A stretch of 64,000 nt of DNA from Haloplanus aerogenes (GTDB lineage: Archaea > Halobacteriota > Halobacteria > Halobacteriales > Haloferacaceae), in NCBI RefSeq assembly GCF_003856835.1, contig NZ_CP034145.1, forward strand, positions 2,666,001 to 2,730,000, given 5' to 3'. Both the position numbers and the translations under genes were made by a program. A model generated the notes under the pieces. The model made no database searches. It was not told the DNA's origin and saw only the letters and a program-made list of their open reading frames with translations. Of this stretch, positions 6,020-27,854 are shown in pieces; within the stretch, counting starts at the first letter, position 1, and each line of letters begins with the position of its first letter.

Positions 6020-6426
6020 GCCGACAGCAACTCGGCGCCCTCGGCCGACAGTTCGACCGTCACGTCCTGCCGGGTCTGCTCGCTCATCTGGTCGATGTTG
6101 CGCGTGAGGACTTCGAGGATATCCTTCGGTTCGGGGTAGACGAGGAAGTTGCCGTCGTCGTCCTCCATCACCAGTTGCGTATCGGAGAGGGAGATCTGAT
6201 CCCCCTCGATGCTGGCGACGACGACCGGGAGCGCCTCGGCGCCGCCGGGGTCGCCCTCCGTGACCATCGTGATGTGGAGTTCGTCGAGGCCGATGAGGTC
6301 CTTGTACTCCCGGACGCGACGCGCACAGCGGACCATATCACGCGTCACGGCCGTCTTCTGCTCGTTGCCGTGTTCCCCTTCGTGGCAGAGCTTGCACACC
6401 CGGAGTTCCATGCGCATAGTACACAC
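6016..6426 (-). CDS. conserved small acidic protein with CxxC motif
   Basis: The 136-residue soluble protein has an N-terminal CKLCHEGEHG motif that could bind a metal, followed by a mixed alpha/beta acidic region. The listed start is GTG; an ATG three codons inside (6417) gives the product MRMELRVCKLC and is equally plausible. Its end overlaps the lipoprotein gene tail-to-tail. I do not recognise a named family. The Cys-rich start followed by a compact domain suggests a small metal-binding regulatory or chaperone-like protein, but this is inference. Confidence 0.55.
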   Translation of the reverse strand: MCTMRMELRVCKLCHEGEHGNEQKTAVTRDMVRCARRVREYKDLIGLDELHITMVTEGDPGGAEALPVVVASIEGDQISLSDTQLVMEDDDGNFLVYPEPKDILEVLTRNIDQMSEQTRQDVTVELSAEGAELLSA

Positions 6427-13100: not shown

Positions 13101-14531
13101 ATGAGCGACGATAGCGGTGAGGACGGATTCCGCGTCGAACGGGACAGCCTCGGCGAGATTCGCGTGCCCGCCGACGCCTACTGGGGAGCCCAGACCCAGC
13201 GCGCGGTGGAAAATTTCCCGATCAGCGACGCGCGGTTCGGGCGGCGATTCGTTCGCGCGCTCGGCGTCGTCAAGAAATCGGCGGCGCGGGCCAACCGTGA
13301 TCTGGGCCTCGTCGACGACGAGATCGCGACGGCCATCGTCGACGCCGCGGACGAGGTGATCGCTGGCGAGCACGACGACCAGTTCCCGGTCGACGTGTTC
13401 CAGACCGGATCGGGCACCTCCTCGAACATGAATGCCAACGAGGTGATCGCCAACCGCGCGGCGGAACTGATGGGCTCGGAGGTGGGCGACCGGGTGGTCC
13501 ACCCCAACGACCACGTCAACTTCGGACAGTCCTCGAACGACGTGATCCCCACCGCGATGCACGTCGCGGCGCTGGAGGCGGTGGAGAAGGATCTCGTGCC
13601 CGCGCTGGAGACGCTCGCCGCGGCGCTCGACGAGAAAGCCGAGGCGTTCGACGGCGTCGTCAAGACCGGCCGCACCCACCTGCAGGACGCCACCCCCGTC
13701 CGCCTCGGGCAGGAGTTCGGCGGCTACCGCACGCAGGTCGAGAAGGGCATCGAGCGCTGTGAGTCGGTCCAGCCCCGACTCGCGGAACTCGCCCTCGGTG
13801 GGACAGCGACGGGGACGGGGCTGAACACCCACCCCGAGTTCCCCGAACGCGCGGCGGCGTACATCGCCGAGGAGACGGACCTCCCCTTCCGCGAGGCGGA
13901 CGACCACTTCGAGGCGCAGGCCGCCCACGACGCCATGGGCGAGGCCCACGGCGCCCTGCGGACGGTCGCGGGCTCGCTGAACAAGATCGCCAACGACCTC
14001 CGACTGCTCGCCTCCGGCCCGCGCAACGGGCTGGGCGAAATCGAACAGCCCGAGAACCAGCCGGGATCGTCGATCATGCCCGGCAAAATAAATCCGGTCG
14101 TCGCCGAGGCGGTCAATCAGGTCCACACGCAGGTCGTGGGCAACGACGCCGCCGTCTCCGCCGGCGCGGCGGGCGGTCAACTCGACCTCAACCTCTACAA
14201 ACCCGTCGTCGCGTACAACTTCCTCCAGTCGGCCGACCTCCTCGCGAACGCCGCCGAGACGTTCGCGGAGAAATTCGTGGCGAAACTGGAGGCGAACGAG
14301 GACCACTGTGCCGACGCCGTCGAGCGGTCGATGGCGCTGGCGACGGCGCTCAACCCCGCCATCGGCTACGACAAGGCGTCGGAAGTCGCCAAGGCGGCGC
14401 TGAAAGAGGGCAAGACCGTCCGCGAGGTGGCGGTGGCGAAAGGCTACCTCACCGAGGCGGAAGCGGACGAGGTACTCGATCCCGAGCGGATGACTCACCG
14501 GGGGATTCTGAGCGGCGACGGCGACGAGTAG
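13101..14531 (+). CDS. fumC: class II fumarate hydratase
   Basis: The 476-residue protein has all class II fumarase/aspartase superfamily signatures: GSGTSSNMNANEVIANRA, KTGRTHLQDATPV and the active-site loop GSSIMPGKINPV. It interconverts fumarate and malate in the citric acid cycle as a cytoplasmic, iron-independent tetramer. Length and order of motifs are typical. A long antisense frame across it is a codon-bias shadow. Start ATG 13101 lies about 30 bases after a TTTT-containing patch that could be its promoter. Confidence 0.95.
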   Translation: MSDDSGEDGFRVERDSLGEIRVPADAYWGAQTQRAVENFPISDARFGRRFVRALGVVKKSAARANRDLGLVDDEIATAIVDAADEVIAGEHDDQFPVDVFQTGSGTSSNMNANEVIANRAAELMGSEVGDRVVHPNDHVNFGQSSNDVIPTAMHVAALEAVEKDLVPALETLAAALDEKAEAFDGVVKTGRTHLQDATPVRLGQEFGGYRTQVEKGIERCESVQPRLAELALGGTATGTGLNTHPEFPERAAAYIAEETDLPFREADDHFEAQAAHDAMGEAHGALRTVAGSLNKIANDLRLLASGPRNGLGEIEQPENQPGSSIMPGKINPVVAEAVNQVHTQVVGNDAAVSAGAAGGQLDLNLYKPVVAYNFLQSADLLANAAETFAEKFVAKLEANEDHCADAVERSMALATALNPAIGYDKASEVAKAALKEGKTVREVAVAKGYLTEAEADEVLDPERMTHRGILSGDGDE

Positions 14532-14826: not shown

Positions 14827-16389
14827 TTACTGTCGACGTAGCCCGACTCCGAGCGCCGCGAGTGCGACGACGACTGCGACCACACCGAATCCGGGCGCCG
14901 ATCCCTGCGTCCCGGCCGGTGCTGGCGTCGTCCCGTCGTCGGTGTTCGTGGCGTCCGTTCCCGTTTCCGCTTCCTCCTGCAATCGTTCCGTCGCCGCCCC
15001 TTCGACGAACGGGTGCCGCCCGGCGTCGAGTTCCGCGCCGCTCGCCATCCCATCCCCGTCCGGATCGAGCGATGGCTCGGCGACGTAGTACCGGGGGTCC
15101 TCCGGCAGCGGCGGCAGGTCGTCCGTGGTCGCGTAGCGGTCCAGCCACGAACCGATCGACTCGTCACCCGTCACCTCCACCACTGCGGCGCGGAAGGCGC
15201 GATAGTTGCGGAACGGCTCCGTCCGCCCAGCGAACACGTCACGGAGCGTATGCTCGCCGTCCGTCCGGCGCTGAATCTCCGCGTCGAGCGCCGCGAGGAC
15301 GTGCGCGCCCTTGGCGTAGTGGGCCTTCGTCCCCCGCCACGTCTCCGAATCGGTGAGCACGACGGGCCGGCTGTCGGGCGTGTACTGCGTCGCGCGGAGG
15401 CCGTCGAGGAAGGAGTCGTACGTGCCGACGCCGTCGTTGAAGGCGAACAGGCGGCCGTAGTACTCGGCCGTCGCCTCGGTCAGCCACGTCGCGTCCTCCC
15501 GGCCGACCGTGCTCAGTCGCGTGTGGACGTACTCGTGCGTGAACACCGACCCCGTCGAGTCCAGGCGGAGGCCCGTACTCCCCACCCAGAACGCGGTGTC
15601 GACCGTCGCGGCCTGCACCGGTCCTTCCTCCAGTCCGCTCAGCGGGAGGACGAACACCGTGATCGTGTCGCGTTGCACCCCGAGGTCGAAGTGTTCGTTC
15701 GCGGTGCGCAGGAAGGCGATGGCCCGGTCGGGAGTCGCGCTCTCGGCGCCGAGGACGAACGTCGCACGCTCGTCGGCGACGGTCACGTTCCGGCGTTCGT
15801 GGGGGCCGAGATACGCCAGGTGGCTCCGCGCGAAGCCCTGTTCGCCCGCAGCCACGTCGAAGGAGGTGGTCTGGAGGGGCTGTGCGTCGGTCCGCACCTG
15901 AATACGCGTCTGGGGTTCGGAGACGAGCGCCCAGTCGTCGCGTTCGATCCCCCGGACGCCCGAGGCGAGCGAGTCACTCACCGCCATACGGATCGAGATG
16001 GTCGGCCGCTCGGTCTCGCCGTCCCAGAGGAAGTAGCCGCGTTCGGTGCGCTCGAAGCCGTCCATCCCGGCGAGGCTGATACCGTCGAGGCCCACGACGG
16101 GCACGGCGACCCGGAGGCCCGTGACGGCCGACGGCACGTCGTACGCGAAGGTGAGGGTCACACTCCCCGGCTCGGGGTTGCGGGAGGCGATGGCACGCTG
16201 GTGGAGGATCGCCTCCTCGCTCGGCGTCCCCGTCGAACCACCCTCGTGCGTGGGCAGGGTCGTCCACTCGGCGGCATCCGGGTCGCTATCTACCGTCGCG
16301 ACGGCGGGTGCGACGCCCGCGACGACGAGTGAGCCGACGACGACGAGGAGTACGAGCGTCCGAGACAGGCGAGAGGTCATGGCGCGCAT
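14827..16389 (-). CDS. secreted gluzincin-like metallopeptidase with PGF-CTERM-like anchor
   Basis: The 520-residue exported protein has an N-terminal signal peptide (VVVGSLVVAGVAPAVA) and a metallopeptidase zinc site HEYVH followed about 20 residues later by TEATAEYY, the HExxH...E arrangement of gluzincins (M1/M61-like). A DPDGDGMASGAELD motif near residue 440 resembles a calcium-binding thrombospondin type-3 repeat. The end, APGFGVVAVVVALAALGVGLRRQ-like, combines a PGF triplet, a hydrophobic helix and basic residues. This is the PGF-CTERM signal processed by archaeosortase A for lipid anchoring at the cell surface. An in-frame ATG at 16380 may be the true start. It diverges from ccmE. Confidence 0.75.
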   Translation of the reverse strand: MRAMTSRLSRTLVLLVVVGSLVVAGVAPAVATVDSDPDAAEWTTLPTHEGGSTGTPSEEAILHQRAIASRNPEPGSVTLTFAYDVPSAVTGLRVAVPVVGLDGISLAGMDGFERTERGYFLWDGETERPTISIRMAVSDSLASGVRGIERDDWALVSEPQTRIQVRTDAQPLQTTSFDVAAGEQGFARSHLAYLGPHERRNVTVADERATFVLGAESATPDRAIAFLRTANEHFDLGVQRDTITVFVLPLSGLEEGPVQAATVDTAFWVGSTGLRLDSTGSVFTHEYVHTRLSTVGREDATWLTEATAEYYGRLFAFNDGVGTYDSFLDGLRATQYTPDSRPVVLTDSETWRGTKAHYAKGAHVLAALDAEIQRRTDGEHTLRDVFAGRTEPFRNYRAFRAAVVEVTGDESIGSWLDRYATTDDLPPLPEDPRYYVAEPSLDPDGDGMASGAELDAGRHPFVEGAATERLQEEAETGTDATNTDDGTTPAPAGTQGSAPGFGVVAVVVALAALGVGLRRQ

Positions 16390-16544: not shown

Positions 16545-16919
16545 GTGCGACGGAAAAACAAGCTCCTCGTCACGATTGTGGGGGTAGTGGTGCTTCTCGG
16601 CGTGCTCGGTGTGTCGAGCATGAACGCCTCTGCTGCGTTCGTGAGTCCAACACAACTGTCCGACGACGACTACGACGGCGAGTGGGTGAATCTCGAGGGG
16701 TCGGTGCAGAACCTCGACACGCAAGGGCAGCGGGCGACGTTCGAGGTGACCGACGGCAACCACTCGACACGCGTCGTCTACGAGGGGACGCTCCCCGAGA
16801 CGATGGGCGAGAATCGCATCGTCGTCGCCAAAGGGCGAGTCGAGGGCGACACGCTCGTCGCCAAGCAGCTCTCCGTCCGTGCCCACGAGGGGTCCGAACG
16901 GCCCGCCGAGGCGCGATGA
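16545..16919 (+). CDS. ccmE: cytochrome c maturation protein CcmE (haem chaperone)
   Basis: The 124-residue protein has one N-terminal membrane helix and a CcmE OB-fold core (VNLEGSVQNL, VVYEGTLPETMGENRIVVAKG). Bacterial CcmE binds haem covalently through His in a KHDExY motif. Here the corresponding region reads SVRAHEGSE, which keeps a His but lacks the usual Lys-His-Asp context and the Tyr. The start is GTG. Its stop overlaps the ccmA start (ATGA), and the position at the head of ccmA and ccmB supports the call. Confidence 0.8.
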   Translation: MRRKNKLLVTIVGVVVLLGVLGVSSMNASAAFVSPTQLSDDDYDGEWVNLEGSVQNLDTQGQRATFEVTDGNHSTRVVYEGTLPETMGENRIVVAKGRVEGDTLVAKQLSVRAHEGSERPAEAR

Positions 16920-17644
16920 CGGAGACGGCGATTCGGGTAGCCGACGTGACGAAGGCGTACGGCCGCGTCACCGCCGTCGACGGCCTCTCCTTCGCCGTCG
17001 AGGACGGCGAGACGGTCGGGCTGTTCGGGCCGAACGGGGCCGGCAAGACCACGCTCTTGCGGATGCTCGCGGGACTCGTCCGTCCGACCGGCGGGACGAT
17101 CACCCTCGGCGCGTCGGAACTGACGCCGGACGACCACGCCGTCTACCGCCGGCTCGGCGTCGTGACCCACGATACGATGCTGTACGACGCCCTCACCGCC
17201 CGCGAGAACCTCCGGGTCCACGCCGACCTCCACGGCCTCGACGACCCGGCGGCACGCTGCGAGACGGTGCTGGACACCGTGGGCCTGCGCGAGCGAGCGA
17301 GCCAGCGGCCCGAGGCGTTCTCCCACGGCCTCTGCAAGCGACTGTCGCTCGCCCGCGCGCTCCTGCACCGGCCGGACGTGTTGCTCCTCGACGAACCCTA
17401 CACCGGACTCGATCAGCGGTCGGTCGCCGATCTGGAGGCCGTCCTCGACGGCTTCGACGACCGGACCGTCGTCCTGACGACCCACGACATCGACCGCGGG
17501 GTCGACCGGTGTGACCGGGCGCTGGTGCTCGACCGGGGCGAACTCCGCGCCGACGTCTCCCTCGACGGATCCGTCGCCGACTTCGACGCCACGTATCGCC
17601 GCGCGATCGGACTGAACGAATCGGAGCGTGGCCGCGACGTATGA
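16916..17644 (+). CDS. ccmA: CcmA, ATP-binding subunit of the haem-handling ABC transporter
   Basis: The 242-residue ABC ATPase has Walker A GPNGAGKTTLL, a signature region SHGLCKRLSLARALL and Walker B VLLLDEPYTGLD, followed by THDIDRG. The signature is degenerate: SHGLCKR instead of LSGGQ. CcmA proteins often carry an SxGxxRR form, which supports this assignment over a generic ABC-2 exporter. With CcmB and CcmC it releases holo-CcmE from the haem-loading complex at the membrane. It overlaps ccmE and ccmB by four bases each. Confidence 0.85.
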   Translation: MTETAIRVADVTKAYGRVTAVDGLSFAVEDGETVGLFGPNGAGKTTLLRMLAGLVRPTGGTITLGASELTPDDHAVYRRLGVVTHDTMLYDALTARENLRVHADLHGLDDPAARCETVLDTVGLRERASQRPEAFSHGLCKRLSLARALLHRPDVLLLDEPYTGLDQRSVADLEAVLDGFDDRTVVLTTHDIDRGVDRCDRALVLDRGELRADVSLDGSVADFDATYRRAIGLNESERGRDV

Positions 17645-18315
17645 GGGCCTTTCTCGTCGCCGTGTTCCGCATCGTCAGGAAGGATCTGCGCGTCGAGAGT
17701 CGGACGAAAGGCATCACGACGACGACGGCGGTGTTCGCGCTCCTCGTCGTCCTCGCCTTCGCGTTCAGTTTCGTCAAGACGTTCCGGGAGCCGGCAGTGC
17801 TCGGCCGCGGGGCGCTCTGGATCGCGTTCGTCTTCGGGGGCACCCTCGGGGTGACGAAGGCGGCGGCCATCGAGGATCGGAACGCCGCCCTCGACGGCCT
17901 GCTGGTGGCACCGGTCGACCGCTCGGCCGTCTACCTCGGGAAGGTGACGAGCACGGCACTGTTCGTCTTCGTCGTGAACGTGGTGACGCTCGGGGTGACG
18001 ACGGTGTTCCTCGGCTACGCGCCGACGCCGCGGACGGCGCTCGCCGTCGTCGGGATTCTCGCCATCGCCGCCGTCGGATTCGCCGCCGTGGGCGTCGTCG
18101 TCGCGACGCTGACCTATCGCTCCGGCCTCGACGAACTCGCGCTCCCGCTGTTGCTCGTCCCTCTCGTCGTGCCCGTGTTGCTGGCGGGCGTCGAACTCAC
18201 GGCGGCGCTCACTGCAGGCGCCCCACTGGGATCGTGGCTCCGCCTCCTCTGTCTCTACACGGGCGTCCTCTTGCTCGCGGGCGTGGCGACGTTCGAGTTC
18301 GTCGTAGAGGAGTAG
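17641..18315 (+). CDS. ccmB: CcmB, membrane subunit of the haem-handling ABC transporter
   Basis: The 224-residue polytopic protein has about six membrane helices. It starts with the typical cytoplasmic leader (FLVAVFRIVRKDLRVESRTK) and has the central GALWIAFVFGGTLGVTKA segment of CcmB. It overlaps ccmA by four bases. It ends three bases before the stop of the convergent ccmD, so the two halves of the maturation locus meet tail to tail with almost no spacer. Confidence 0.85.
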   Translation: MRAFLVAVFRIVRKDLRVESRTKGITTTTAVFALLVVLAFAFSFVKTFREPAVLGRGALWIAFVFGGTLGVTKAAAIEDRNAALDGLLVAPVDRSAVYLGKVTSTALFVFVVNVVTLGVTTVFLGYAPTPRTALAVVGILAIAAVGFAAVGVVVATLTYRSGLDELALPLLLVPLVVPVLLAGVELTAALTAGAPLGSWLRLLCLYTGVLLLAGVATFEFVVEE

Positions 18316-18318
18316 CGC

Positions 18319-18435
18319 TTAGCGCGCGTCGTTCAACTGGCGTTCGAGACGACCCAGTCGACGCTGCAGGTACGTCACGTACCCGAAGAGGGCGACGAAC
18401 AGCGCCGTGTAGCCGAACAGGAGCAGTGGTTCCAT
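18319..18435 (-). CDS. ccmD: CcmD-like short membrane protein (38 residues)
   Basis: A 38-codon gene encodes one membrane helix followed by a basic/polar coil (YLQRRLGRLERQLNDAR), matching the size and topology of CcmD, the small protein that helps release holo-CcmE from CcmC. A strong Shine-Dalgarno (GGAGGTG, complement of 18442-18448) sits six bases before its ATG and overlaps the end of ccmC, five bases upstream. The longer frame starting at 18624 lies inside ccmC in another phase and is rejected. Confidence 0.75.
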   Translation of the reverse strand: MEPLLLFGYTALFVALFGYVTYLQRRLGRLERQLNDAR

Positions 18436-18440
18436 GATTC

Positions 18441-19208
18441 TCACCTCCGTTGCGTGTGGAGTCGGCGAATGCGGTCTTCGACTTCGTGCACCTGGATACG
18501 AAGCCCCAGCAGGTAGACGTACAGGAACGTCGCCGCGACGACGGTCACGACCAGCGTCGTGGGATCGATGTTGGCGCTGACCTGCGGGTTCCCCATCGTC
18601 GTCTCGTGGAACGTCGGCGTCCACAGCCGAGTGGAGGCGTACGAGATCGGCACGGTGACGAAGCCGATGACGCCGTACACCGCGACGTACCGATCACCCG
18701 CTCCCGGGTCCGTCGCGGCCGACACCACGAGATAGCCCGCGTAGATGAACCACACGATGAGGAAGGTGACGAGGCGCACGTCCGTCCACTCCCACCACGA
18801 GTTCCAGATGACCTTCCCCCACGCGCTTCCGAACAGGAGCGTCAGCGTCGCGAAGAGGAAGCCAAGTTCGCCCGAACTGTGGGCGAGGCGGCTCCAGAAC
18901 GGCCCGCGGTAACGGAGATAGAGCGCGCTCCCGACGAACGTGGTGCCGAGTGCCGCGGCGGCCACCCACGCGAGGGCGATGTGCCAGTATGCCAGCAGGT
19001 TGCCGCCGTGTTCGATGCCGTACATCGTCTTCGAGGCGGTGCCGAACACGAGCGCCAGCGAGAGCGTGCCGAACACGAGCGTCCCCCATTTCACCGCGCG
19101 ACTTCGCGTCACGCGGTGGAGGATACCCGTTATCCGTCCGACGATGCGAGCGGCGCTGAAGCGATTCGACCGTGTGCGTTCCGTTCGTTCGTATTCGTCT
19201 GTCGTCAT
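18441..19208 (-). CDS. ccmC: CcmC, haem delivery protein
   Basis: The 255-residue protein has six membrane helices and the tryptophan-rich haem-binding loop AWGKVIWNSWWEWTDVRL, the CcmC/CcmF superfamily WWD motif. Flanking His residues (GIEHGG in one loop, TFHETT in another) are candidates for axial haem ligands. It places haem on CcmE at the extracellular face. It is the third gene of the tsdA-ccdA-ccmC-ccmD unit, with five-base gaps on both sides. Confidence 0.9.
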   Translation of the reverse strand: MTTDEYERTERTRSNRFSAARIVGRITGILHRVTRSRAVKWGTLVFGTLSLALVFGTASKTMYGIEHGGNLLAYWHIALAWVAAAALGTTFVGSALYLRYRGPFWSRLAHSSGELGFLFATLTLLFGSAWGKVIWNSWWEWTDVRLVTFLIVWFIYAGYLVVSAATDPGAGDRYVAVYGVIGFVTVPISYASTRLWTPTFHETTMGNPQVSANIDPTTLVVTVVAATFLYVYLLGLRIQVHEVEDRIRRLHTQRR

Positions 19209-19213
19209 GTGTG

Positions 19214-19894
19214 TCAGCTCAAGTTGGTGACCGACGCGAGTGCGAGTTTGTCCACGTCGAACAGCACCGCGAGGCCGAGGAGGACGAAGGCGTAGCCGGT
19301 CGCAGTTCGGAAGCTAGCGGTGGACGCGGAGTCGACGAGGCGGTGGCCACCGATCCGACCCGCGTATGCCACGCCGAGGAGGGGAATGGAAAAGCCGACG
19401 CCGTAGGTAAACAGGAGGGCGGCCCCGCCGGCGACGCTCGCCGACGACCCGACGTACGCGAGGACGCCGCCGAGGATGGGGCCGACGCAGGGCAACCAGA
19501 TGATGCCGAGGAGCAACCCGACGACGAAGGCGTTCGCGATGGGGTGGCGGTCCTCGTCGACACGGCCCGTCAGCGCCGTCGCCCGGCCCGCCAGTCGGGA
19601 CGCGTACGTCGTGTAGAGGTCGTTCACGTCATCGTCGGCCAGTACGACGCCGAACACGAGCATGAGGACCGCGAACGGGGCCCGAATCGTCTCCGGCGTA
19701 ACGGCACCGAGCGACGCCGTGAGCGTCCCCAGCGCCGTGAACGTCAGCGTGCTCCCGGCGACGATGGCGACCGGGCGGAGTCGGTGGCCGTTCGCCCCCA
19801 CGACGAGAACGGGAATCATCGGCAGGCAACACGGTGTCAGGATAGTCACCACTCCCGCGAGAAAGACCGCGACCGTGGAGGGTGTCTCTATCAT
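19214..19894 (-). CDS. ccdA: CcdA-type thiol-disulfide transmembrane electron carrier
   Basis: The 226-residue, six-helix protein has the two reactive cysteine sites of CcdA/DsbD: LTPCCLPMIPV in the first helix and WLPCVGPILGG in the fourth. The first site has a doubled Cys. The family passes reducing power from cytoplasmic thioredoxin to extracytoplasmic thioredoxin-like proteins that keep the CxxCH cysteines of apocytochromes reduced. It lies between tsdA and ccmC in the same operon; the extracytoplasmic thioredoxin encoded at 21679 is the likely partner. Confidence 0.9.
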   Translation of the reverse strand: MIETPSTVAVFLAGVVTILTPCCLPMIPVLVVGANGHRLRPVAIVAGSTLTFTALGTLTASLGAVTPETIRAPFAVLMLVFGVVLADDDVNDLYTTYASRLAGRATALTGRVDEDRHPIANAFVVGLLLGIIWLPCVGPILGGVLAYVGSSASVAGGAALLFTYGVGFSIPLLGVAYAGRIGGHRLVDSASTASFRTATGYAFVLLGLAVLFDVDKLALASVTNLS

Positions 19895-19919
19895 TCAGTC
19901 GTCGGAGGGGAGGCAGGCG

Positions 19920-21365
19920 TCAGCCTGCGGTGTCCGCTCGCGTCTCGGCCGATTCACCGTCCCGCATCGCCGACGATACCGCGGCCTGCGGTTCGAGTGC
20001 CGACTGGTTCGACGCGGTGGCGTTGCTCGCGGATTCGTTGCCCACGTTCTCGTAGGTGCGAATCCACGTCGTCTGCCACGACCCGTCGACCGATTCGTTG
20101 CGGAGAGGCTGTTCGTACCGGCTCGTGTCCTCCGGGATCATCTCCTGGGTGACTTCGGAGTCGTCGATGGGGATGCCGGCGAGCATGAGCTTCTTCGTCA
20201 TCGGATTCATGTCGTAGCCGAGCCGCTGCTGGGTTCGGTTGTAGTAGATGCCCTCGTCCGGCGCACCGGCCACGGCCCAGTCTTTGGGCTGGCGCGGCAG
20301 GTGCGGCCGTTTGTGGGCGTTCATGAATCCGGCGACGTCCTGCACGTCCTCCCAGTTGGAGAACGTGTGGCCCGCGCCGTAGGGCATGGACTCGCGGATG
20401 AAGCCGGCGGAGGTGTACATCCGACCCATCCCCGCGCCGTCGTTGAAGGAGTCCTCACCCCAGAGCGGCGGGTACTGACCCTCGACACCCTGCCCGTTCG
20501 CGCCGTGACAGGACGCACAGTTCTCGAGGTAGAGTTCGGCCCCGCGGACCGGGTTGACCTCGGAGACGGGGACCTTCTCGTCACCTTCCGGCTTCTCGAT
20601 GTGGCGCCAGTAGGGGACCCGCTCGCTCGGGGTGCCCTTGTTCAGCCAGACCATGTACGACTCCATAGCCTGAATCTCGCGGCTGTCGTACGCCGGGACG
20701 CCCTCCTCGCTGCCGGGGGCGTTCATGCTTCGGAGGAAACAACCCATGATACGCTGTCGCATGTCGCGCATACGCTGGGTCCGACCCGTCCACTCGGGGT
20801 AGCCGGCGGCGGTGCCGACCAGCGGAATCATGTCGATATCCTGCCCAACCATGCCGGTGGTCGTCGGGAGCGACCCGCCGCCGTGGCAGTTCGCACACGA
20901 CAGGTCGTTACCGACGTGCTCCGGCATCTCGTTCGACGTGTTGGCGAACAGTTTGCGCCCTTCTCGGACGAGTTCGCGCCGGTTCTCGTTTTCCGGCAAC
21001 GTCGAGTTGTTCATCTTCTTCGGCTGGAACTGCACCTCGGACCCAGCCTTCGGATCTTTGTACTTGAACTCCTGCTCTCGCAGGTCCTCGTTGTACCACT
21101 TGCTCCCGCTCCAGTCCCCGGGAAGCTTCTGAACGCTTCCCTCGGCGGCCGCGGTGCCTCCACCGCCCGTGTCTGCCCCCTGTGGCGTCGCCGTCGCGCC
21201 GGTCGCGCCGGCCCCGCCGGCCTGCGGGCCAGCGGGACCGACCGCACCGGTGCCGAGGTACGCGAGCACCCCGTTGAGGGCGAACACGAGGATGATCGCC
21301 GCGAACACCGTCCCGGCGAGGAGGAGTGCGGGTTTGAGCAGGAGCGTCGAATCGCCCTGACTCAT
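19920..21365 (-). CDS. tsdA: dihaem cytochrome c, thiosulfate dehydrogenase (TsdA)-like
   Basis: The 481-residue protein has an N-terminal membrane anchor (about residues 10-38), an Ala/Gly-rich linker and two cytochrome c domains with haem sites CANCH and CASCH. Between them the motif MGCFLRSMNAP places a Cys 48 residues after the first haem His, close to the position of the unusual Cys axial ligand of TsdA thiosulfate dehydrogenases. The surrounding pattern (GNDLSCANCH, GCxxRSMN, YMVWLNKG) also fits that family. Likely reaction: thiosulfate to tetrathionate, or the reverse. It heads the operon with ccdA, ccmC and ccmD, so it is probably a main client of the maturation system. The exact substrate is inferred. 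Confidence 0.78.
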   Translation of the reverse strand: MSQGDSTLLLKPALLLAGTVFAAIILVFALNGVLAYLGTGAVGPAGPQAGGAGATGATATPQGADTGGGGTAAAEGSVQKLPGDWSGSKWYNEDLREQEFKYKDPKAGSEVQFQPKKMNNSTLPENENRRELVREGRKLFANTSNEMPEHVGNDLSCANCHGGGSLPTTTGMVGQDIDMIPLVGTAAGYPEWTGRTQRMRDMRQRIMGCFLRSMNAPGSEEGVPAYDSREIQAMESYMVWLNKGTPSERVPYWRHIEKPEGDEKVPVSEVNPVRGAELYLENCASCHGANGQGVEGQYPPLWGEDSFNDGAGMGRMYTSAGFIRESMPYGAGHTFSNWEDVQDVAGFMNAHKRPHLPRQPKDWAVAGAPDEGIYYNRTQQRLGYDMNPMTKKLMLAGIPIDDSEVTQEMIPEDTSRYEQPLRNESVDGSWQTTWIRTYENVGNESASNATASNQSALEPQAAVSSAMRDGESAETRADTAG

Positions 21366-21678
21366 GTCTGCTCCGTCGTTCCGTTCGAGTTACCTATCAT
21401 AGCTGTGTGTCAGAGTCGTTCGCAGTAGTTCGCATAATTTACACAGGCCATATAAAACTTCCTCCAGAACTGTCGAGTGAATTTGAGCCGTAAAATAGTT
21501 TGATTGCCCGAGCACGAGACCGATCGCGACCGAATCCGCTCGTCACACCAGACCTACCGCCACAACCGCTGAAACGCCCCTTTAGACCCATTACAGCCGA
21601 AATCAGTCTCATCGGCTGGAACAGCGCCGTCCCGAGACAGTACATTTTACTAGGGGAAGCTGTTACAGGGGGTCACTG
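21366..21678. promoter_or_regulatory. divergent promoter region between tsdA and the thioredoxin-ccmF unit
   Basis: This 313-base spacer has no convincing gene. On the minus strand an element reading TTTTATATGG (complement of about 21449-21458) lies about 85 bases before tsdA. On the plus strand an AT-rich element (acattttact, about 21643-21652) lies about 27 bases before ATG 21679, consistent with a near-leaderless transcript. The middle of the spacer is AT-richer than the flanking genes. Confidence 0.45.
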
Positions 21679-22161
21679 ATGAAGCCCCGAAAGGCGATGA
21701 CCCTCGCCTTCTTCGTAGTCTTGCTTAGTATTGGGTATTTTTCGATGAATGCAGCACCCACGCTGAGCGACGAGAACTACTCGTATCACGGAGATACACG
21801 GTGGCAGACCAACGTCTCGGCGGCGGAGGCGACGGCGGCCGCCGAGGACAAGCCGATCATCGTCTACTTCTGGACGACGTGGTGTACGTACTGTGAGGAT
21901 TACAACCGCGAGGTGTACGCCGACCCAGCGGTGCAGTCGGAACTGGACGACTTCGTGAAAGTGGCGGTGAATCTCGACAGCGACGCACCGGCGGGGAACC
22001 GGTTACAGCGGAAGTACAACGTCGACTACCCGCCACAGCACGTCATCATCAGGCCGGACGGTGAGGTGCTCGTCCGCATCAACGGCTACGCCGGGAAGAG
22101 CGACTTCCTCTCCTATCTCGACGCGGCGAAAAGCGAGTACGCGCGGGGCAAGCGTCAATGA
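21679..22161 (+). CDS. membrane-anchored thioredoxin-like protein of the cytochrome c maturation locus
   Basis: The 160-residue protein has an N-terminal membrane helix and a thioredoxin fold with active site WCTYC and a cis-Pro-like YPPQHVII segment. It faces the outside and should accept electrons from CcdA to reduce apocytochrome or CcmE-associated disulfides, the role of CcmG/ResA in bacteria. It overlaps ccmF by four bases (ATGA). The motif differs from CcmG (WCxxC with Pro), and it is closer to the DsbD-gamma/thioredoxin_7 type. Confidence 0.8.
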   Translation: MKPRKAMTLAFFVVLLSIGYFSMNAAPTLSDENYSYHGDTRWQTNVSAAEATAAAEDKPIIVYFWTTWCTYCEDYNREVYADPAVQSELDDFVKVAVNLDSDAPAGNRLQRKYNVDYPPQHVIIRPDGEVLVRINGYAGKSDFLSYLDAAKSEYARGKRQ

Positions 22162-24560
22162 CGCCGACCGTCGGCACGGCGTTGCTCGCCCTCGCGTTCG
22201 CCGCGTCGCTCTCGGCGACGGCCATCCTCGCTCGCGCCTACCTCGTCGACGACGACGCCTATCTCGACTACGTGTCGAAACTCACCACAGCGGCCGCGGT
22301 CCTGCTCCTCTCCGCGCTGCTCCAGCTGACCTACCAGTTCGTCGTCACCGACTACACGAACGCCTACGTCTGGGAGAACACCGCGTCGTATCTCCCCCTG
22401 CTGTACCGGGTGACGGGCGTCTACGCCGCCAACGAGGGCTCCGTGTTGCTGTGGGCGGTCATCGTCGCCATCGTCGCTCTGGTGGCCGGCGCCGTCCGCG
22501 GCATTCCGGACCGGCACGCCAAACTCGTCCACGCGCTCACCCTCGGCCTCGTCGCGTACTTCACGGGGATGTTGCTGCTCCAGAGCCCGTTCGCGTCGAT
22601 TCGGACCGAGTTCCCGCAGGCGCCGCCGGGCTTCGTCCCCACGACCGGACAGGGGCTGAATCCGCTGCTGGTGGATCCGTACATGGCGATTCACCCGCCA
22701 GTGATGTTCACCGCCTACGCTCTCTTGGCGATGCCCTTCGCCATCGGTGCGGCCCACTTCGTCTCGCTGTTCCGGGGCAACGGCGGCGTCTTTCCGACGT
22801 GGCACGGCAGCGTCACCCGGTGGCTGCGGCTGAGCTGGCTGTTTCTGACCGCCGCCGTCGCGCTCGGCGGCCTCTGGTCGTACACCGTCCTCGGCTGGGG
22901 CGGTATCTGGGCGTGGGATCCCGTCGAGACGGCGATTCTGATCCCGTGGCTCTTCCTCACCGCGACGCTCCACGCCGTCACCGCCTACGAACCGACGGGT
23001 CGGTACCGGATCCTCGCTCCCGCGATGACCGCCAGCGTGTTCGCACTCGCCGTCTACACCACGTCCGTCGTGCGTAGCGGCGTCTTCCGGAGCGTCCACT
23101 CCTTCGCCGACGGCGGCATCGGCGCCGCCTTCATCGTCCTCATGGCGGTGACCGCCGGCCTCGGTGTCGTCGCTCCGCTCGCGTACTGGTTGCTCGAAAC
23201 CGAGGACGACGACGAGGACTCGACCACCGACGGCTGGCTCCGTCAGTCGAACCTCCTCCACCTCGCCGTCCTCGGATTCGGCCTCCTCACGTTCGTCTCG
23301 CTGTGGGGGCTCACCTTCCCCCTCCTCCGCGACGCCGTCACCGGCCTCGAAGTCTCCGTCGAGTCGCGGTACTACAACCTGTGGAGCTATCCGCTCGTCC
23401 TCGGCATCCTCCTCCTCCTCGGCTTCTACATGGACTACGACCACGAGCGGAGTCGGCGGAGCGTCGTCGGCCTCGGCGTGTTCGCCGCCGCGACGCTCGT
23501 CGGCGCCGCCGTGGCACCGACCGAGACGTGGCAGTTGGCGTCCCCCCGACCCGGCGACGCCCTCGTCTACCGGGTCGTGGGGAGTGCGAGCCTCCTCTCG
23601 GTGCTTCCGCCGGTGGCCTACGCCATCATGGGCACGGTGAAACGCGCCAGCGGCCGGATTCGAGCGGCGACGACCCGCGACGCGAAACTGAAGGAGACGG
23701 GCATCACCTTCGTCCACGTCGGGGCCGCGCTGCTCGTCCTCTCGTTACCCTTCATGTACGCCTTCGCCGGGCAGGCGTCCGTCATGGCGACCGGTGTCGG
23801 CACGGGATCGGTCGACCGGTCACAGCAGGCGATTCCCGGCACGGAGTACTCGATTCGCATCCTCGGTCACTCCCGAACCGAGTTCCCCACCGATCCGGCC
23901 GCGGAGTCGTACGCGCTCTCGACCGAGCAGGTGATAGCGCGGGGGCCCGCACTGAACGGCTCCGTCCAGACAGTCCACGGCACCGTCACCGACGTGCGAA
24001 ACGGGCCGCGGGCGACGGTGGTCCAACTCGACGACTCCCGAGTCTGGATCGGCCTCCCCGACGAGGAGACGAACGCCTCGCTCGCCACCGGCCAACACCT
24101 CGTGGCGCGCGGGCAACTGATGTGGGACTTCGTCCCGAGCGCCGACGCCGTCGTTCTCGCCGGGCCGCAAACGGTCGGCCCCGCGTCGGATCCGCCGGAG
24201 TCCGTCGCCCCGACCCGCGTCGTCGCCGAAGGCGTCTCGCTCGCGGTGTACGACGGCGACCGCCTCGTCACCTCGGGAATCGCCGGCCAGCGTCGGTACC
24301 CCAAACAGGGAGGGATGCAGATTCGGGACGTGCTCATCGACCGAGGGCTCCTCGTCGACACCTACGTCATCGCGGGCGTCAGCGACGGGACGGCCTCGAT
24401 CACCGTCAAGCGCATTCCCTTCGTCACGCTGATGCGACTCAGCATCCTCTCGTTGCTCGTCGGAATGGCGCTCGTCGCGCTGTTCGACCCGCGACACGGC
24501 GTGACGACCGGGACGGGCATTCACTCGACCCGTGACACGAACCCGGAGGTTGCAGACTGA
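22158..24560 (+). CDS. ccmF: CcmF, cytochrome c haem lyase subunit
   Basis: The 800-residue protein has about fifteen membrane helices and the WWD-type haem-handling loop GWGGIWAWDPVETAILIPWL, followed by a His in LHAV. Another conserved segment, YRVTGVYAANEGSVLLW, matches CcmF/NrfE. A large extracytoplasmic loop (about residues 560-760) is soluble and beta-rich as in the family. It joins haem from CcmE to apocytochrome CxxCH motifs. It overlaps the thioredoxin gene and is followed after one base by an exported protein gene. Confidence 0.9.
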   Translation: MTPTVGTALLALAFAASLSATAILARAYLVDDDAYLDYVSKLTTAAAVLLLSALLQLTYQFVVTDYTNAYVWENTASYLPLLYRVTGVYAANEGSVLLWAVIVAIVALVAGAVRGIPDRHAKLVHALTLGLVAYFTGMLLLQSPFASIRTEFPQAPPGFVPTTGQGLNPLLVDPYMAIHPPVMFTAYALLAMPFAIGAAHFVSLFRGNGGVFPTWHGSVTRWLRLSWLFLTAAVALGGLWSYTVLGWGGIWAWDPVETAILIPWLFLTATLHAVTAYEPTGRYRILAPAMTASVFALAVYTTSVVRSGVFRSVHSFADGGIGAAFIVLMAVTAGLGVVAPLAYWLLETEDDDEDSTTDGWLRQSNLLHLAVLGFGLLTFVSLWGLTFPLLRDAVTGLEVSVESRYYNLWSYPLVLGILLLLGFYMDYDHERSRRSVVGLGVFAAATLVGAAVAPTETWQLASPRPGDALVYRVVGSASLLSVLPPVAYAIMGTVKRASGRIRAATTRDAKLKETGITFVHVGAALLVLSLPFMYAFAGQASVMATGVGTGSVDRSQQAIPGTEYSIRILGHSRTEFPTDPAAESYALSTEQVIARGPALNGSVQTVHGTVTDVRNGPRATVVQLDDSRVWIGLPDEETNASLATGQHLVARGQLMWDFVPSADAVVLAGPQTVGPASDPPESVAPTRVVAEGVSLAVYDGDRLVTSGIAGQRRYPKQGGMQIRDVLIDRGLLVDTYVIAGVSDGTASITVKRIPFVTLMRLSILSLLVGMALVALFDPRHGVTTGTGIHSTRDTNPEVAD

Positions 24561-24561
24561 C

Positions 24562-25806
24562 ATGAAACGCCTACTCGCTCTCCTCGTCGTCCTCAGTTGT
24601 CTCGCTACCGTCCCGACTGCCACGGCCGCCACGTCGGTATCCGGAACCGTCACCGTCGAGAACGGCACCGCGGACGGGGCGCGTGTGACCGTCGTGCCCG
24701 TCACGCAGACCCTCCAGCGCGCCGGCGAGTCCGCCCAGACGCGAGTGGACAGATCGACGTTCTCGGTGTCGGCGCCCGACGCGCCGCGCTACGCCGTCCG
24801 CGTCCGGTACGAGGGCACGACCCACTACGAAGTGTTGCGGAACACGACCCACGCGGAGTTCTCCCTCGGCGGCGCCGTCGAGGGCCGCGTCGTCGACGAG
24901 GATGGAACGCCGCTGTCCGGCGTCGCCGTCGACGTGGTCGACGATCAGGGCTTCGTCGTGACGACGGTCGAGACGGACGCCGACGGCCGTGTCGCCGTCG
25001 GCCCCGTCGAATCCAACGAGACGTATCACCTCCGCGCGACGGTCGACGGCGTGCCGTATCGGCAGTCCGTGACCGCCTCGGCGGATCAGCCAGCCACGCT
25101 GACGGTGCAACCACCGACGTCGAACGCGTCCGCCCTGCGGGTCGCAGCCGACACCCGACCGGCGTACGTCCTGCAGGTGGTGCCGCCGAAAAACGAGTCG
25201 GGCGTGCCGAGCGTCATCCAGACGATCACGCTTCGGAACACCGCCGATCGGCCGTTCGCGGGATCGGTCACGCTCCCCCTGCCGACGGATGCGAGTCCGT
25301 ACGCGGGGATGGTCGACAACCGTGAGGCCGAGTATCGTCGCACCGACGCCGGCGTCCGTCTCAACGTGACCGCCCCTGCCAACGGCACGGTACGAGTCGG
25401 GGCGGCCTACGATCTGTCAGGGTCGACGCTGACGACGACGCCACGCCGCGACGTGCCGTCGCTCACCGTCGTCGTCCAGGGGTACGACCCGAGCACTGTC
25501 GACCACTCCGCGAACCTGCGCGTCGGCGACGCACCGGTCGCTCTCCTCGTCAGCGACGGATCTATCGGAGCGGGCGAGTCGATTCGACTCGACCTGCGCG
25601 GGGCGCGGCGCCAGGAGAGTCAGTCCGCGGCGACGAACGATGCGGGGAGCGCCGGCGCCGCGAGTGACACGGGCGCCGACGAGACCGGTACGGACCCCGC
25701 AAGAAGCAACACCATCCCGCCGTTCCCCGGCGCCGCGATTCTCGGCGCCATCGGAAGTATGGTGCTCGTCGGCCTCGTGGGGTACCGGTTCGCGCCCGAC
25801 GACTGA
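24562..25806 (+). CDS. exported protein with carboxypeptidase-regulatory-like domain, C-terminal membrane anchor
   Basis: The 414-residue protein from ATG 24562 has a signal peptide cut near ATAATSVSG and a central carboxypeptidase-regulatory-like beta domain (GAVEGRVVDEDGTPLSGVAVDV, then DADGRVAVGPV). A long beta-rich region follows, then a Ser/Thr/Asp-rich linker and a single C-terminal helix. It begins one base after the ccmF stop, so it is part of that operon. I do not know its function. Because no CcmH or CcmI gene is visible, a role in presenting apocytochrome to CcmF is an attractive but untested idea. Confidence 0.6.
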   Translation: MKRLLALLVVLSCLATVPTATAATSVSGTVTVENGTADGARVTVVPVTQTLQRAGESAQTRVDRSTFSVSAPDAPRYAVRVRYEGTTHYEVLRNTTHAEFSLGGAVEGRVVDEDGTPLSGVAVDVVDDQGFVVTTVETDADGRVAVGPVESNETYHLRATVDGVPYRQSVTASADQPATLTVQPPTSNASALRVAADTRPAYVLQVVPPKNESGVPSVIQTITLRNTADRPFAGSVTLPLPTDASPYAGMVDNREAEYRRTDAGVRLNVTAPANGTVRVGAAYDLSGSTLTTTPRRDVPSLTVVVQGYDPSTVDHSANLRVGDAPVALLVSDGSIGAGESIRLDLRGARRQESQSAATNDAGSAGAASDTGADETGTDPARSNTIPPFPGAAILGAIGSMVLVGLVGYRFAPDD

Positions 25807-25824: not shown

Positions 25825-26700
25825 TTATTCTAGCCGTTCCGCGGCGTCCCGCTCCAGCAACGGTTCGGCGTTCGGCGTCGGGAGCGTCACCACGTCCTCG
25901 CTCGCGAGGTCGTACTCGCGTTCGTCGACGCCGAAGATTTCGCCCACGTCGCGCGTGATCCGCAGGGTGGTTCGGTCAGTCTCCGTGTCGGGGGTGGTGT
26001 CGGGGTCGGTCCCACTCCCGCCGGTAGGCGACGCGACGGCGTCGCCGCCGTCCGGCGTGGGTGACTCGTCCGGCGGGACGGGCGTCTCGGTCGATGGCGA
26101 CGTGTCCGCCGCCTCGACCGACGACGCATCGCCACCCATCGCCTCCGCGAGCAAGTCGTCCGGGGCGGGCGCTCGGCCCGGCACCTCGTCGCTCGCGCCC
26201 GCTTCGGACTCGGTTGGCAGGGTCGGCTCGGGATCTGGCGCTGGCTCCGGGTCGACCCGTCCGGTCTCGTCTGGCGTCGGCGTGTCGGCCGCCGTTCCCT
26301 CGTCGTCGCCGATCTCACCCGCGAGCGTGTCGAGTACCGTCTCGCGGTTCCGTTCGATCCGGGCGACGAGATCGTCGAAGAGGTCGCGCTCCTCGCTGGT
26401 GAGGCCTTCGTCCTCGGCGGCCATGCCCGCCGCGGCGAAGGTCGCGCGCTTGACGATCTTGCCGATGCGACGCTCGTAGATGCTCTCGACCACCTCCTCG
26501 GCTGTCTCGATTTCGTCCGTGAGACGGGTCACTTCCGGCGAGGAGAAAGGGTCGTCGGCCTCGGCGGCCACGCGTTCGCGTTCGGCCTTGCGCTCGGCGA
26601 CGTACTCCGCTACGTCGCGGTAAAACGAGTCCCGGAGGTGTTGGAGGCTGTCTTTCTGCCGTTCGGTGCGCTGGACGGAGCGCAGTTCCTCCACGTTCAT
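25825..26700 (-). CDS. gins51: GINS complex subunit Gins51
   Basis: The 291-residue protein has an N-terminal helical A domain (ELRSVQRTERQKDSLQHL to about residue 130) and a very acidic low-complexity linker of about 110 residues. A C-terminal B domain (TTLRITRDVGEIFGVDERE ... DVVTLPTPNAEPLLERDAAE) completes it. This A-linker-B order is typical of archaeal Gins51, part of the CMG replicative helicase. The start ATG 26700 overlaps the priS stop (ATGA), the conserved priS-gins pair of archaea. The acidic linker is longer than in non-halophiles. Confidence 0.85.
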   Translation of the reverse strand: MNVEELRSVQRTERQKDSLQHLRDSFYRDVAEYVAERKAERERVAAEADDPFSSPEVTRLTDEIETAEEVVESIYERRIGKIVKRATFAAAGMAAEDEGLTSEERDLFDDLVARIERNRETVLDTLAGEIGDDEGTAADTPTPDETGRVDPEPAPDPEPTLPTESEAGASDEVPGRAPAPDDLLAEAMGGDASSVEAADTSPSTETPVPPDESPTPDGGDAVASPTGGSGTDPDTTPDTETDRTTLRITRDVGEIFGVDEREYDLASEDVVTLPTPNAEPLLERDAAERLE

Positions 26701-27854
26701 TCTTTGATCTTCCGGGCTCGGTCGCGCGTCATCAGGAACACCCCGACGCACTCCGGTACCGAATGCTCACCAGCATCGAGTGTAAAACTGTCGCCGTCGA
26801 GTTCGACCGTGCCGGGGTCGGTCACCTCGACGCGGATCGACCGCCCGGTGAAGCGGTCGGGGACGGCGTCGACCAGCGGGTCGAAGTCGTCGAGGTCCGA
26901 CCGGTCGATGGAGCGGACGACGAGGCCGCTCCCGCCGTGGAGGCTCCCCGGGAGGCGGATCAGCCGGTGGGTGTCCGTCGTCACCGGTTCGTCGATGGGC
27001 GCCGTCTCGGCCTCGACCGCCTCGCTGGCGAGTGCCTCGACCAGCAACCGCGCGCCCGGGCCGCCGGCCTCGACGTTCCCCTGCGCGACCGCCTCGCTGT
27101 CGACGAAGGCGTCGAGCAGGGTGTCCGCCCGCCCCTCGCCGATGCCGTCGAACGCGGTCAGGCGCTCTCTGGCGTCGGCCTCGTCCAGATCGCGCAACTC
27201 GTCGATGAACGCTTCGAGGCGGCGGTGTGTGCGCCGGCCCCACCCACCCCCCGTCCGGAGTTCGCGCCGGGTCGTCCCGCCGACCGCGCGGGTGCGGACC
27301 AATCCCTCGATGTCGAGGTCGACCGCGCGGACGTAGTCGACGATTTCGCGGCGGGCCTCCGAATCTAGGTCGGCGAGGCCGTCGTCGCGGACGTGGACGT
27401 GGTAGCCGCGGCCACCGGAGAACACCACGGTCAGGTCGTCGAAGCCGAAGTCGTCTTCGAGCAGATCGAGCAGGCGATAGAGGGCGTCCTTGCAGGCGTC
27501 GAGCATCTCGGCGTAGGTGGCCATCTCGGGATCGACGCTCGGGAGGTGGTCGGCGTCGAGGTCGAAAACGAGGTCGGCGCCGCACCACCCCTTCTCGTCC
27601 ATCGACTTCGCGCCGGGGTCGTCGTAGCGCGCGGCCGAGAAGTAGACGTGCCGCGGCGCCTCGCGCGCGAGGAAGTCACCCACGTCGCCGAGGTCGTAGA
27701 TGGACTGATGGCGGACCATCGTCGTCGACTCGCCGCGCGTCCACGGGATGTGACCCCACTCGCGGGCGTCCGGATCGGGGGGAAGCGTCGGGTCGGCACG
27801 CCGGTAGTAGTCACCGAAGCGCCCCGAGAGGTACTCGCGTGTCCGTCGGTCCAT
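26697..27854 (-). CDS. priS: DNA primase small (catalytic) subunit PriS
   Basis: The 385-residue protein matches archaeo-eukaryotic primase small subunit. ADLVFDLDADHLP carries the metal-binding Asp pair, and FSGGRGYHVHV is the conserved nucleotide-binding loop. A late RLPGSLHGGSGLVVR segment contains another conserved motif with His. It makes primers together with PriL, which is not in this window. It overlaps gins51 by four bases and diverges from mscS. Confidence 0.93.
   Translation of the reverse strand: MDRRTREYLSGRFGDYYRRADPTLPPDPDAREWGHIPWTRGESTTMVRHQSIYDLGDVGDFLAREAPRHVYFSAARYDDPGAKSMDEKGWCGADLVFDLDADHLPSVDPEMATYAEMLDACKDALYRLLDLLEDDFGFDDLTVVFSGGRGYHVHVRDDGLADLDSEARREIVDYVRAVDLDIEGLVRTRAVGGTTRRELRTGGGWGRRTHRRLEAFIDELRDLDEADARERLTAFDGIGEGRADTLLDAFVDSEAVAQGNVEAGGPGARLLVEALASEAVEAETAPIDEPVTTDTHRLIRLPGSLHGGSGLVVRSIDRSDLDDFDPLVDAVPDRFTGRSIRVEVTDPGTVELDGDSFTLDAGEHSVPECVGVFLMTRDRARKIKE

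Follow-up and report, generated by a model that had tools for sequence, protein, structure and literature searches.

A System I cytochrome c maturation locus of Haloplanus aerogenes that is probably dedicated to a single TsdA-like cytochrome

Cytochrome c maturation is usually seen as a service for many cytochromes, and the locus described here raises the question of which cytochrome, or cytochromes, a complete maturation gene set might be kept for. The locus resides in a stretch of 64,000 nt (G + C content 66%) of the haloarchaeon Haloplanus aerogenes (NZ_CP034145.1, assembly GCF_003856835.1), the whole of which is referred to as the window. At positions 16545-25806 the window contains ten intact genes, as defined by open reading frame (ORF) listing and family searches, which comprise a System I (Ccm) maturation gene set and, in its midst, tsdA, coding for a dihaem cytochrome similar to thiosulfate dehydrogenase. 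An earlier reading of these letters, the original prediction, had suggested that the system is retained because of this cytochrome. At the level of sequence, the genes present, their conserved residues, the co-occurrence over the class Halobacteria, the copy-number pairing and a change of the CcmE motif make it likely that the cassette is a self-contained, client-dedicated maturation unit whose TsdA interconverts thiosulfate and tetrathionate.

The ten genes form three units, ccmE-ccmA-ccmB on the plus strand, tsdA-ccdA-ccmC-ccmD on the minus strand and thioredoxin-ccmF-exported protein on the plus strand, and the predicted System I locus with an embedded tsdA-like gene was thus recovered gene by gene in the place and order proposed for it:

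16545-16919, plus strand: ccmE, haem chaperone, GTG start (PF03100, E 9.6e-13, 48.8 bits, cut-off 24.6)
16916-17644, plus strand: ccmA, ABC ATPase (PF00005; TIGR01189, 129.3 bits, cut-off 131.6)
17641-18315, plus strand: ccmB, ABC membrane subunit (PF03379, E 3.8e-22)
18319-18435, minus strand: ccmD, 38 amino acids (TIGR04391, 27.9 bits, over the cut-off of 24)
18441-19208, minus strand: ccmC, haem handling (PF01578, E 1.1e-20)
19214-19894, minus strand: ccdA, thiol electron carrier (PF02683, E 1.7e-18)
19920-21365, minus strand: TsdA-like dihaem cytochrome c (phmmer against TsdA 4wqc, E 8.6e-39; PF00034 and PF21342 over cut-off)
21366-21678, no strand: divergent intergenic region of 313 bases between tsdA and the thioredoxin gene (from the coordinates)
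21679-22161, plus strand: thioredoxin with hydrophobic N-terminus and WCTYC motif, putative CcmG-like role (PF13098, E 2.9e-13)
22158-24560, plus strand: ccmF, haem lyase (PF01578, E 1.9e-25; TIGR00353, E 2e-59, under cut-off)
24562-25806, plus strand: exported protein, three beta domains and a C-terminal helix (PF13620; model mean pLDDT, the predicted local distance difference score, 83.6)

The tight packing with short overlaps that had been ascribed to all three units applies to the plus-strand genes, where ccmE/ccmA, ccmA/ccmB and thioredoxin/ccmF overlap by 4 bases each, but not to the tsdA unit, whose genes are separated by gaps of 25 (tsdA-ccdA), 5 (ccdA-ccmC) and 5 bases (ccmC-ccmD). 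The gene for the exported protein starts 1 base past the end of ccmF, provided that the ATG at 24562 is its start, and ccmB and ccmD are convergent and 3 bases apart. With CcmA, B, C, E and F all present, the gene set is that of a System I. The Pfam cut-offs are passed by the products of ccmE, ccmB, ccmC, ccmF, ccdA, the thioredoxin gene and tsdA, and by CcmA as an ABC ATPase. CcmC, CcmF, CcdA and the thioredoxin moreover retain invariant His, Cys or Trp residues, amongst them His76 and His201 of CcmC (n = 29 sequences), Cys22, Cys23 and Cys136 of CcdA (n = 30), Cys69 and Cys72 of the thioredoxin (n = 33) and His179, His272, His314 and His520 of CcmF (n = 33).

With respect to its distribution, the locus is far from universal in haloarchaea, as had been surmised: in a survey of 391 genomes of the class, ccmF was found in 40 (43 copies), tsdA in 26 (28 full copies) and a match over the cut-off to MauG (PF03150), in these cassettes a MauG-type dihaem cytochrome, in 14. 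Every one of the 26 genomes with tsdA and of the 14 with MauG carries ccmF, the hypergeometric probability of the co-occurrence of tsdA and ccmF being 9e-31 when relatedness is ignored. A fifteenth MauG match, under the cut-off, comes from a genome without ccmF (G382). Within the family (148 genomes) the corresponding numbers are 12 for tsdA, 13 for ccmF and 1 for MauG, and the thirteenth ccmF genome (G024) is the one with MauG. The association extends to the single copies, for 27 of the 43 ccmF copies lie beside tsdA, 14 beside mauG and 1 near multihaem cytochromes, while 1 could not be judged. The distance between tsdA and ccmF is 641-890 bases in 27 of the 28 tsdA copies, and that between the MauG gene and ccmF 1.2-1.3 kb in all 14 MauG matches. 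The sole ccmF genome with neither tsdA nor MauG (G381) has at its locus (L223:790-8337) ORFs with 8 and 4 CxxCH motifs as well as, within the same 20 kb, ferredoxin-like and NrfD-like ORFs named by eye.

As a whole, the set of ten genes recurs in 22 out of 23 TsdA loci of relatives, the 23rd locus being without ccmA, B, C, D and E. Amongst named genomes, some of which are the same assemblies as in the class survey, all ten are found in 17 of 18 TsdA loci, and the remaining one (L285) shows seven before the contig ends; these loci stem from Halobellus, Halorussus, Halococcus, Halomicrococcus, Salinibaculum, Halogranum, Halorientalis, Natronorubrum, Natribaculum, Natronococcus, Natrinema and Haloterrigena. 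Two genomes (G360 and G365) have two complete TsdA cassettes each, with two ccmC each. Genome G171 carries both the TsdA and the MauG type: its TsdA cassette holds ccdA, thioredoxin, ccmF and the exported protein with no ccmA, B, C, D or E within 19.5 kb, its MauG cassette holds these five genes, and there are two CcmF of different clades (L214 and L215) and one ccmC genome-wide. Perhaps haem delivery is shared in this strain and the ligation module separate for each cytochrome.

In a tree of 33 CcmF sequences the proteins sort by client, the two label changes observed being the minimum (mean with shuffled labels 8.3), and the MauG clade has full support. Between TsdA and six other cassette proteins the pairwise distances are correlated (Spearman 0.72-0.80), as common descent alone would also give. 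That tsdA is what the system is kept for is well supported in the H. aerogenes genome, but as a general statement it has to be widened, since elsewhere the same place is taken by MauG or by multihaem cytochromes; the pattern that emerges over the class is one ligation module per client.

As a separate observation on the MauG type, three of its cassettes contain between ccmE and ccmD an ORF of about 500 amino acids (L038:4077-5606, L226:4616-6181 and L224:15790-17409) whose N-terminal part is hydrophobic and in which one domain resembles, as judged by eye, the sulfite oxidase family of molybdoenzymes.

A dedicated system should have no other client, and many other c-type cytochromes in the genome had been named as what would weaken the special link. 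In the host genome (3.5 Mb, 99.88% complete), where CxxCH was the haem motif looked for, no second cytochrome was found. The corresponding DNA pattern is much rarer, with 93 sites, than a backward control pattern with 353, and such a raw count, being uninformative without reading frames, was discarded as a tally of cytochromes; frames were for this reason scored against the other five. Four of the 93 sites are inside the window, two of them in tsdA, one in a frame of 81 codons that lacks coding character and one encoding CKLCH. Outside the window, 26 of the 89 motif frames were the best or near-best coding frame, and reading these by eye, with no database search, revealed no cytochrome; those to which a name could be given resembled MoaA, a DUF255 thioredoxin, a zinc-dependent dehydrogenase and zinc-ribbon proteins. 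Over its cut-off, PF00034 matched TsdA genes only in the 40 genomes with ccmF, and in 70 genomes (these 40 and 30 others) the matches of PF13442 over its cut-off were confined to the TsdA genes of 26 genomes, with three matches below the cut-off away from TsdA, one of them in the host genome. PF03150 (MauG) has no match in the host genome.

The client itself is a protein of 481 residues with two haem-binding sites, CANCH and CASCH, in one ORF. Its match to the crystal structures of Allochromatium vinosum TsdA spans residues 123-358, and the five best matches by sequence amongst solved structures are the thiosulfate dehydrogenase entries 4wqc, 4v2k, 4wq7 and 4wqd and an entry named 'Cytochrome C' (5lo9). 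The active site of the A. vinosum enzyme includes Arg109, Arg119, Ser127 and Arg224 (PMC4423706), and its haem ligands include, in mature numbering, Cys96, Lys208 and Met209 (PMC6879331). By sequence alignment to 4wqc, with which the spacing in the solved chain agrees, the window protein has Arg195, Arg205, Ser213 and Arg315 as well as Cys209 and Met327 at the corresponding positions, and all six residues are invariant in 14 aligned haloarchaeal sequences; Cys209 and Met327 are predicted to be the axial ligands. At its N-terminus the window protein has a hydrophobic anchor, and several relatives have a lipobox-like start instead, as read by eye.

Might the protein then be a SoxA-like or another sulfur-compound cytochrome rather than a thiosulfate dehydrogenase? 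The SoxA model TIGR04484 does match it, with 43.2 bits below the equivalog cut-off of 110, and modelling of haloarchaeal proteins was reported to suggest a similarity to SoxA (PMC4429474). However, four of its five best sequence matches amongst solved structures are thiosulfate dehydrogenases, SoxA (3oa8) appears in the same search only with E 0.032, and Ser213 is the equivalent of Ser127, which is described as invariant in TsdA and lacking in SoxA (PMC4423706), so that we regard a SoxA-like cytochrome as very improbable. The predicted thiosulfate/tetrathionate chemistry is supported by the invariant active-site residues and by the presence of the cassette in 'Natronorubrum thiooxidans', as set out below.

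A haloarchaeon is said, by the title of a paper of Sorokin et al. from 2005, to oxidise thiosulfate to tetrathionate. The strain HArc-T of 'Natronorubrum thiooxidans', a name attributed to Sorokin et al. (PMC8530250), carries the same ten genes, as revealed by the scan of named genomes, which makes tsdA a candidate gene for the phenotype reported in 2005. No match to DoxA (PF07680) was found in any of 41 genomes including that of 'N. thiooxidans' (0/41), other thiosulfate enzymes not having been searched. DoxA is a subunit of another archaeal thiosulfate enzyme.

Several points weigh against a self-contained unit devoted to TsdA. In one genome (G159) the pairing cannot be judged, tsdA and ccmF being on different contigs, and in G171 the genome-wide search for haem delivery genes covered ccmC and not ccmA, B and E. 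In the CcmF tree, support for the TsdA clade is weak (58/72), and the CcmF of the multihaem type sits on a long branch. The NCBIfam cut-offs are unmet by five Ccm proteins (ccmA 129.3 of 131.6 bits, ccmE 54.1 of 126, ccmB 32.5 of 156.2, ccmC 80.3 of 186 and ccmF 202.0 of 569); because all five models matched below threshold, these proteins are taken to be divergent family members. In the window, the CKLCH motif (6396, minus strand) is near the N-terminus of a likely real gene for 136 amino acids (6016-6426, minus strand; third-position GC 0.88) in which no signal or membrane segment was seen by eye, and at C1:1652465-1652608 in the host genome PF13442 reaches 20.3 of the required 27 bits around a CEFCH in a 607-amino-acid frame. 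Amongst the 89 motif frames elsewhere in the genome, the 63 that scored worse than another frame were left unread. Activity data for any haloarchaeal TsdA were not found. Finally, the window protein has Ser326 at the position of Lys208, where 14 aligned rows have either Ser or Ala.

The 63 unread frames would leave room for a general maturation system which merely adjoins one cytochrome and serves other clients with unusual haem motifs as well. In favour of such clients, haloarchaeal cytochromes c found biochemically are described as lacking recognisable genes, non-standard motifs being suggested (PMC4429474). Against a general system speak the agreement of copy numbers, the sorting of CcmF into clades by client, the restriction of ccmF to 40 of 391 genomes and the lack of any match of PF00034 and PF13442 over their cut-offs beyond TsdA, and we consider it improbable.

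The substitution at the Lys208 position bears on the direction of the reaction. In the bidirectional Campylobacter TsdA this position is Asn, and haem 2 has His/Met ligation (PMC6879331); therefore tetrathionate reduction by the haloarchaeal enzyme would be possible. The enzyme might then be a tetrathionate reductase or a bidirectional valve in anoxic brines and not mainly a thiosulfate oxidase, in line with a haem 2 pocket in which the A. vinosum Lys is missing and Ser/Ala and Met are present, as in a pocket like that of the Campylobacter enzyme (His/Met, midpoint potential Em +172 mV; PMC6879331). This alternative we hold to be possible but doubtful. The reaction direction cannot be read from sequence. 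Against a reductase, the haloarchaeal strain to which the phenotype is credited is a thiosulfate oxidiser, going by the title of the paper, and carries the cassette.

The exported protein, the product of the tenth gene, was present in 24 of the 24 TsdA cassettes examined, and a tblastn search with the window protein as query found none in eight MauG cassettes and the multihaem cassette. Its model contains three beta domains and, with low confidence, a C-terminal helix. Of the domains, the middle one is transthyretin-like (3e8v, Z 13.0, 79 residues, 1.7 A), and the third (residues 188-348) resembles the N-terminal beta domain of M1 aminopeptidases as well as ribophorin I/Ost1 (Z about 11, root mean square deviation 3.1-4.2 A). 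A CcmH/CcmI role was sought by fold, and no Ccm protein was amongst the 50 matches listed per search, which weighs neither way. From its position and its restriction to TsdA cassettes, we infer that the protein may present apo-TsdA to CcmF.

In contrast to published System I types, the haem-attachment region of the window CcmE reads VRAHEGSE, with Ala in the Cys column, His114 next and no Tyr. In a joint alignment of 31 haloarchaeal CcmE, the window included, with 30 non-haloarchaeal CcmE of the same phylum (the best-scoring matches, 86 of 196 genomes having had one), the haloarchaeal Cys column is Ala in 30 and Ser in one and never Cys (0/31), the next column is His in all 31 and the one after that Glu in 30 and Asp in one, and no Tyr is found at His+4 in any of the 31, as HxxxY would require. 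The non-haloarchaeal proteins, on the other hand, have Cys in 30/30 and a Tyr four later in 29/30; two such loci read by eye show CPSRL (L262) and CPTMY (L271). The 18 named loci concur in that the His is present and Cys and Tyr are missing, and in 'N. thiooxidans' the His is followed by Asn. In a phmmer alignment to Escherichia coli CcmE (8ce8/1sr3) the His is paired, over a gap of one residue, with the His that binds haem. In the CcmE model, which shows nothing further, His114 follows the last strand.

To judge from these sequences, haloarchaeal CcmE is in conflict with the printed statement that archaeal CcmE is universally CxxxY, and the kit of haloarchaea, although its components make it a System I, fits neither published CcmE type (HxxxY or CxxxY). 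Likewise, CcmD is said in print to be missing in archaea (PMC9084895), whereas ccmD accompanies ccmC in each of the 30 cassettes in which ccmC was seen, the window included (L221 read by eye); a printed CcmC/CcmD alignment that includes Halobacteria (PMC12077264) already implies a haloarchaeal CcmD. No CcmH match was found amongst the ten cassette genes, to which the Pfam and NCBIfam searches were limited.

If these observations are put together, the following course of events can be envisaged. TsdA would be made as an apoprotein and held by its anchor at the outside of the membrane, where CcdA and the anchored thioredoxin would keep the cysteines of its CxxCH sites reduced. CcmABCD would load haem onto CcmE, and CcmF would attach two haems to TsdA, probably with the exported beta-domain protein as client-specific partner. 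Holo-TsdA might then interconvert thiosulfate and tetrathionate at the Cys-ligated haem, most likely in the direction of thiosulfate oxidation as a supplementary electron source, and the electrons would leave through the His/Met haem to an acceptor. Since it would have no other client in the cell, the kit would be retained, acquired and duplicated along with its cytochrome. On the side of the maturation chemistry, we lean somewhat towards a third kind of System I, in which CcmE, lacking the Cys or His and the Tyr of the two known kinds, would carry haem via the displaced His (RAHE) or non-covalently and which would possess client-private CcmF-thioredoxin modules, with the beta-domain protein added in the case of TsdA.

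Some neighbouring genes were considered as well. A fumarase (13101-14531) and a Gins51/primase pair (25825-27854) were rejected as parts of the cassette, as they flank it in only some of 12 relatives. Adjoining ccmE there is a protein of 520 amino acids (14827-16389) without a Pfam match at 1e-5, which is a neighbour of the cassette in two relatives of the same genus. Near the start of the window (87-3131) a molybdopterin oxidoreductase of 1015 amino acids is encoded (PF00384, PF01568).

The co-localisation of tsdA with ccm genes and part of the MauG pairing have been in print since 2015: for five species of haloarchaea, Kletzin et al. described TsdA homologues (their cluster 28) whose genes form operon-like groups with ccm genes, and for several others MauG (cluster 29) encoded with ccm genes, and stated that certain haloarchaea possess these two kinds and no others (PMC4429474). 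Set against what that paper contributes on this locus, the pairing by copy number, the client-sorted CcmF clades, the exported partner, the CcmE motif and the link to 'N. thiooxidans' come from the present analysis. The literature found, as judged by titles and abstract openings of open-licence papers, did not describe the CcmE motif change or the copy-number pairing. These two, together with the splitting of the kit in G171 and the connection to 'N. thiooxidans', may be new to the specialist. In haloarchaea, complete kits down to haem export are found with one client, and G171 gives a hint that CcmF, thioredoxin and exported protein are client-specific and haem delivery shareable. The cassette thus offers a natural one-client system for the study of substrate recognition by CcmF, and the CcmE change makes the old question of the need for the canonical attachment residue directly testable.

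Compared with known systems, the client resembles the TsdA of A. vinosum and Campylobacter jejuni in its two haem domains, the Cys at haem 1, the Met at haem 2 and the Arg/Arg/Ser/Arg set, but differs by a membrane anchor or lipobox-like start, a low-complexity linker, a C-terminal extension past residue 358, Ser/Ala at the Lys208 position and the location of its gene inside a maturation locus. With the System I of E. coli (CcmABCDEFGH, HxxxY CcmE) the kit shares CcmA-F, thioredoxin, CcdA and the invariant His residues of CcmF and CcmC; unlike it, the ten genes include no CcmH/CcmI match, and the CcmE site is Ala-His with the Tyr missing. The System I* known from other archaea and from Desulfovibrio, with a CxxxY CcmE, is similar in its small set and in the lack of a CcmH match in the locus, but in the haloarchaeal kit the CcmE site is without Cys and Tyr and CcmD is present. 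A further parallel is NrfEFG, a haem lyase devoted to NrfA, which adds only a lyase. As in that system, where NrfE is a relative of CcmF (PMC3601427), a CcmF-like lyase appears to be devoted to one client; in contrast to it, the genes for haem delivery travel with the client in the haloarchaeal cassettes, except in G171, which resembles the Nrf case.

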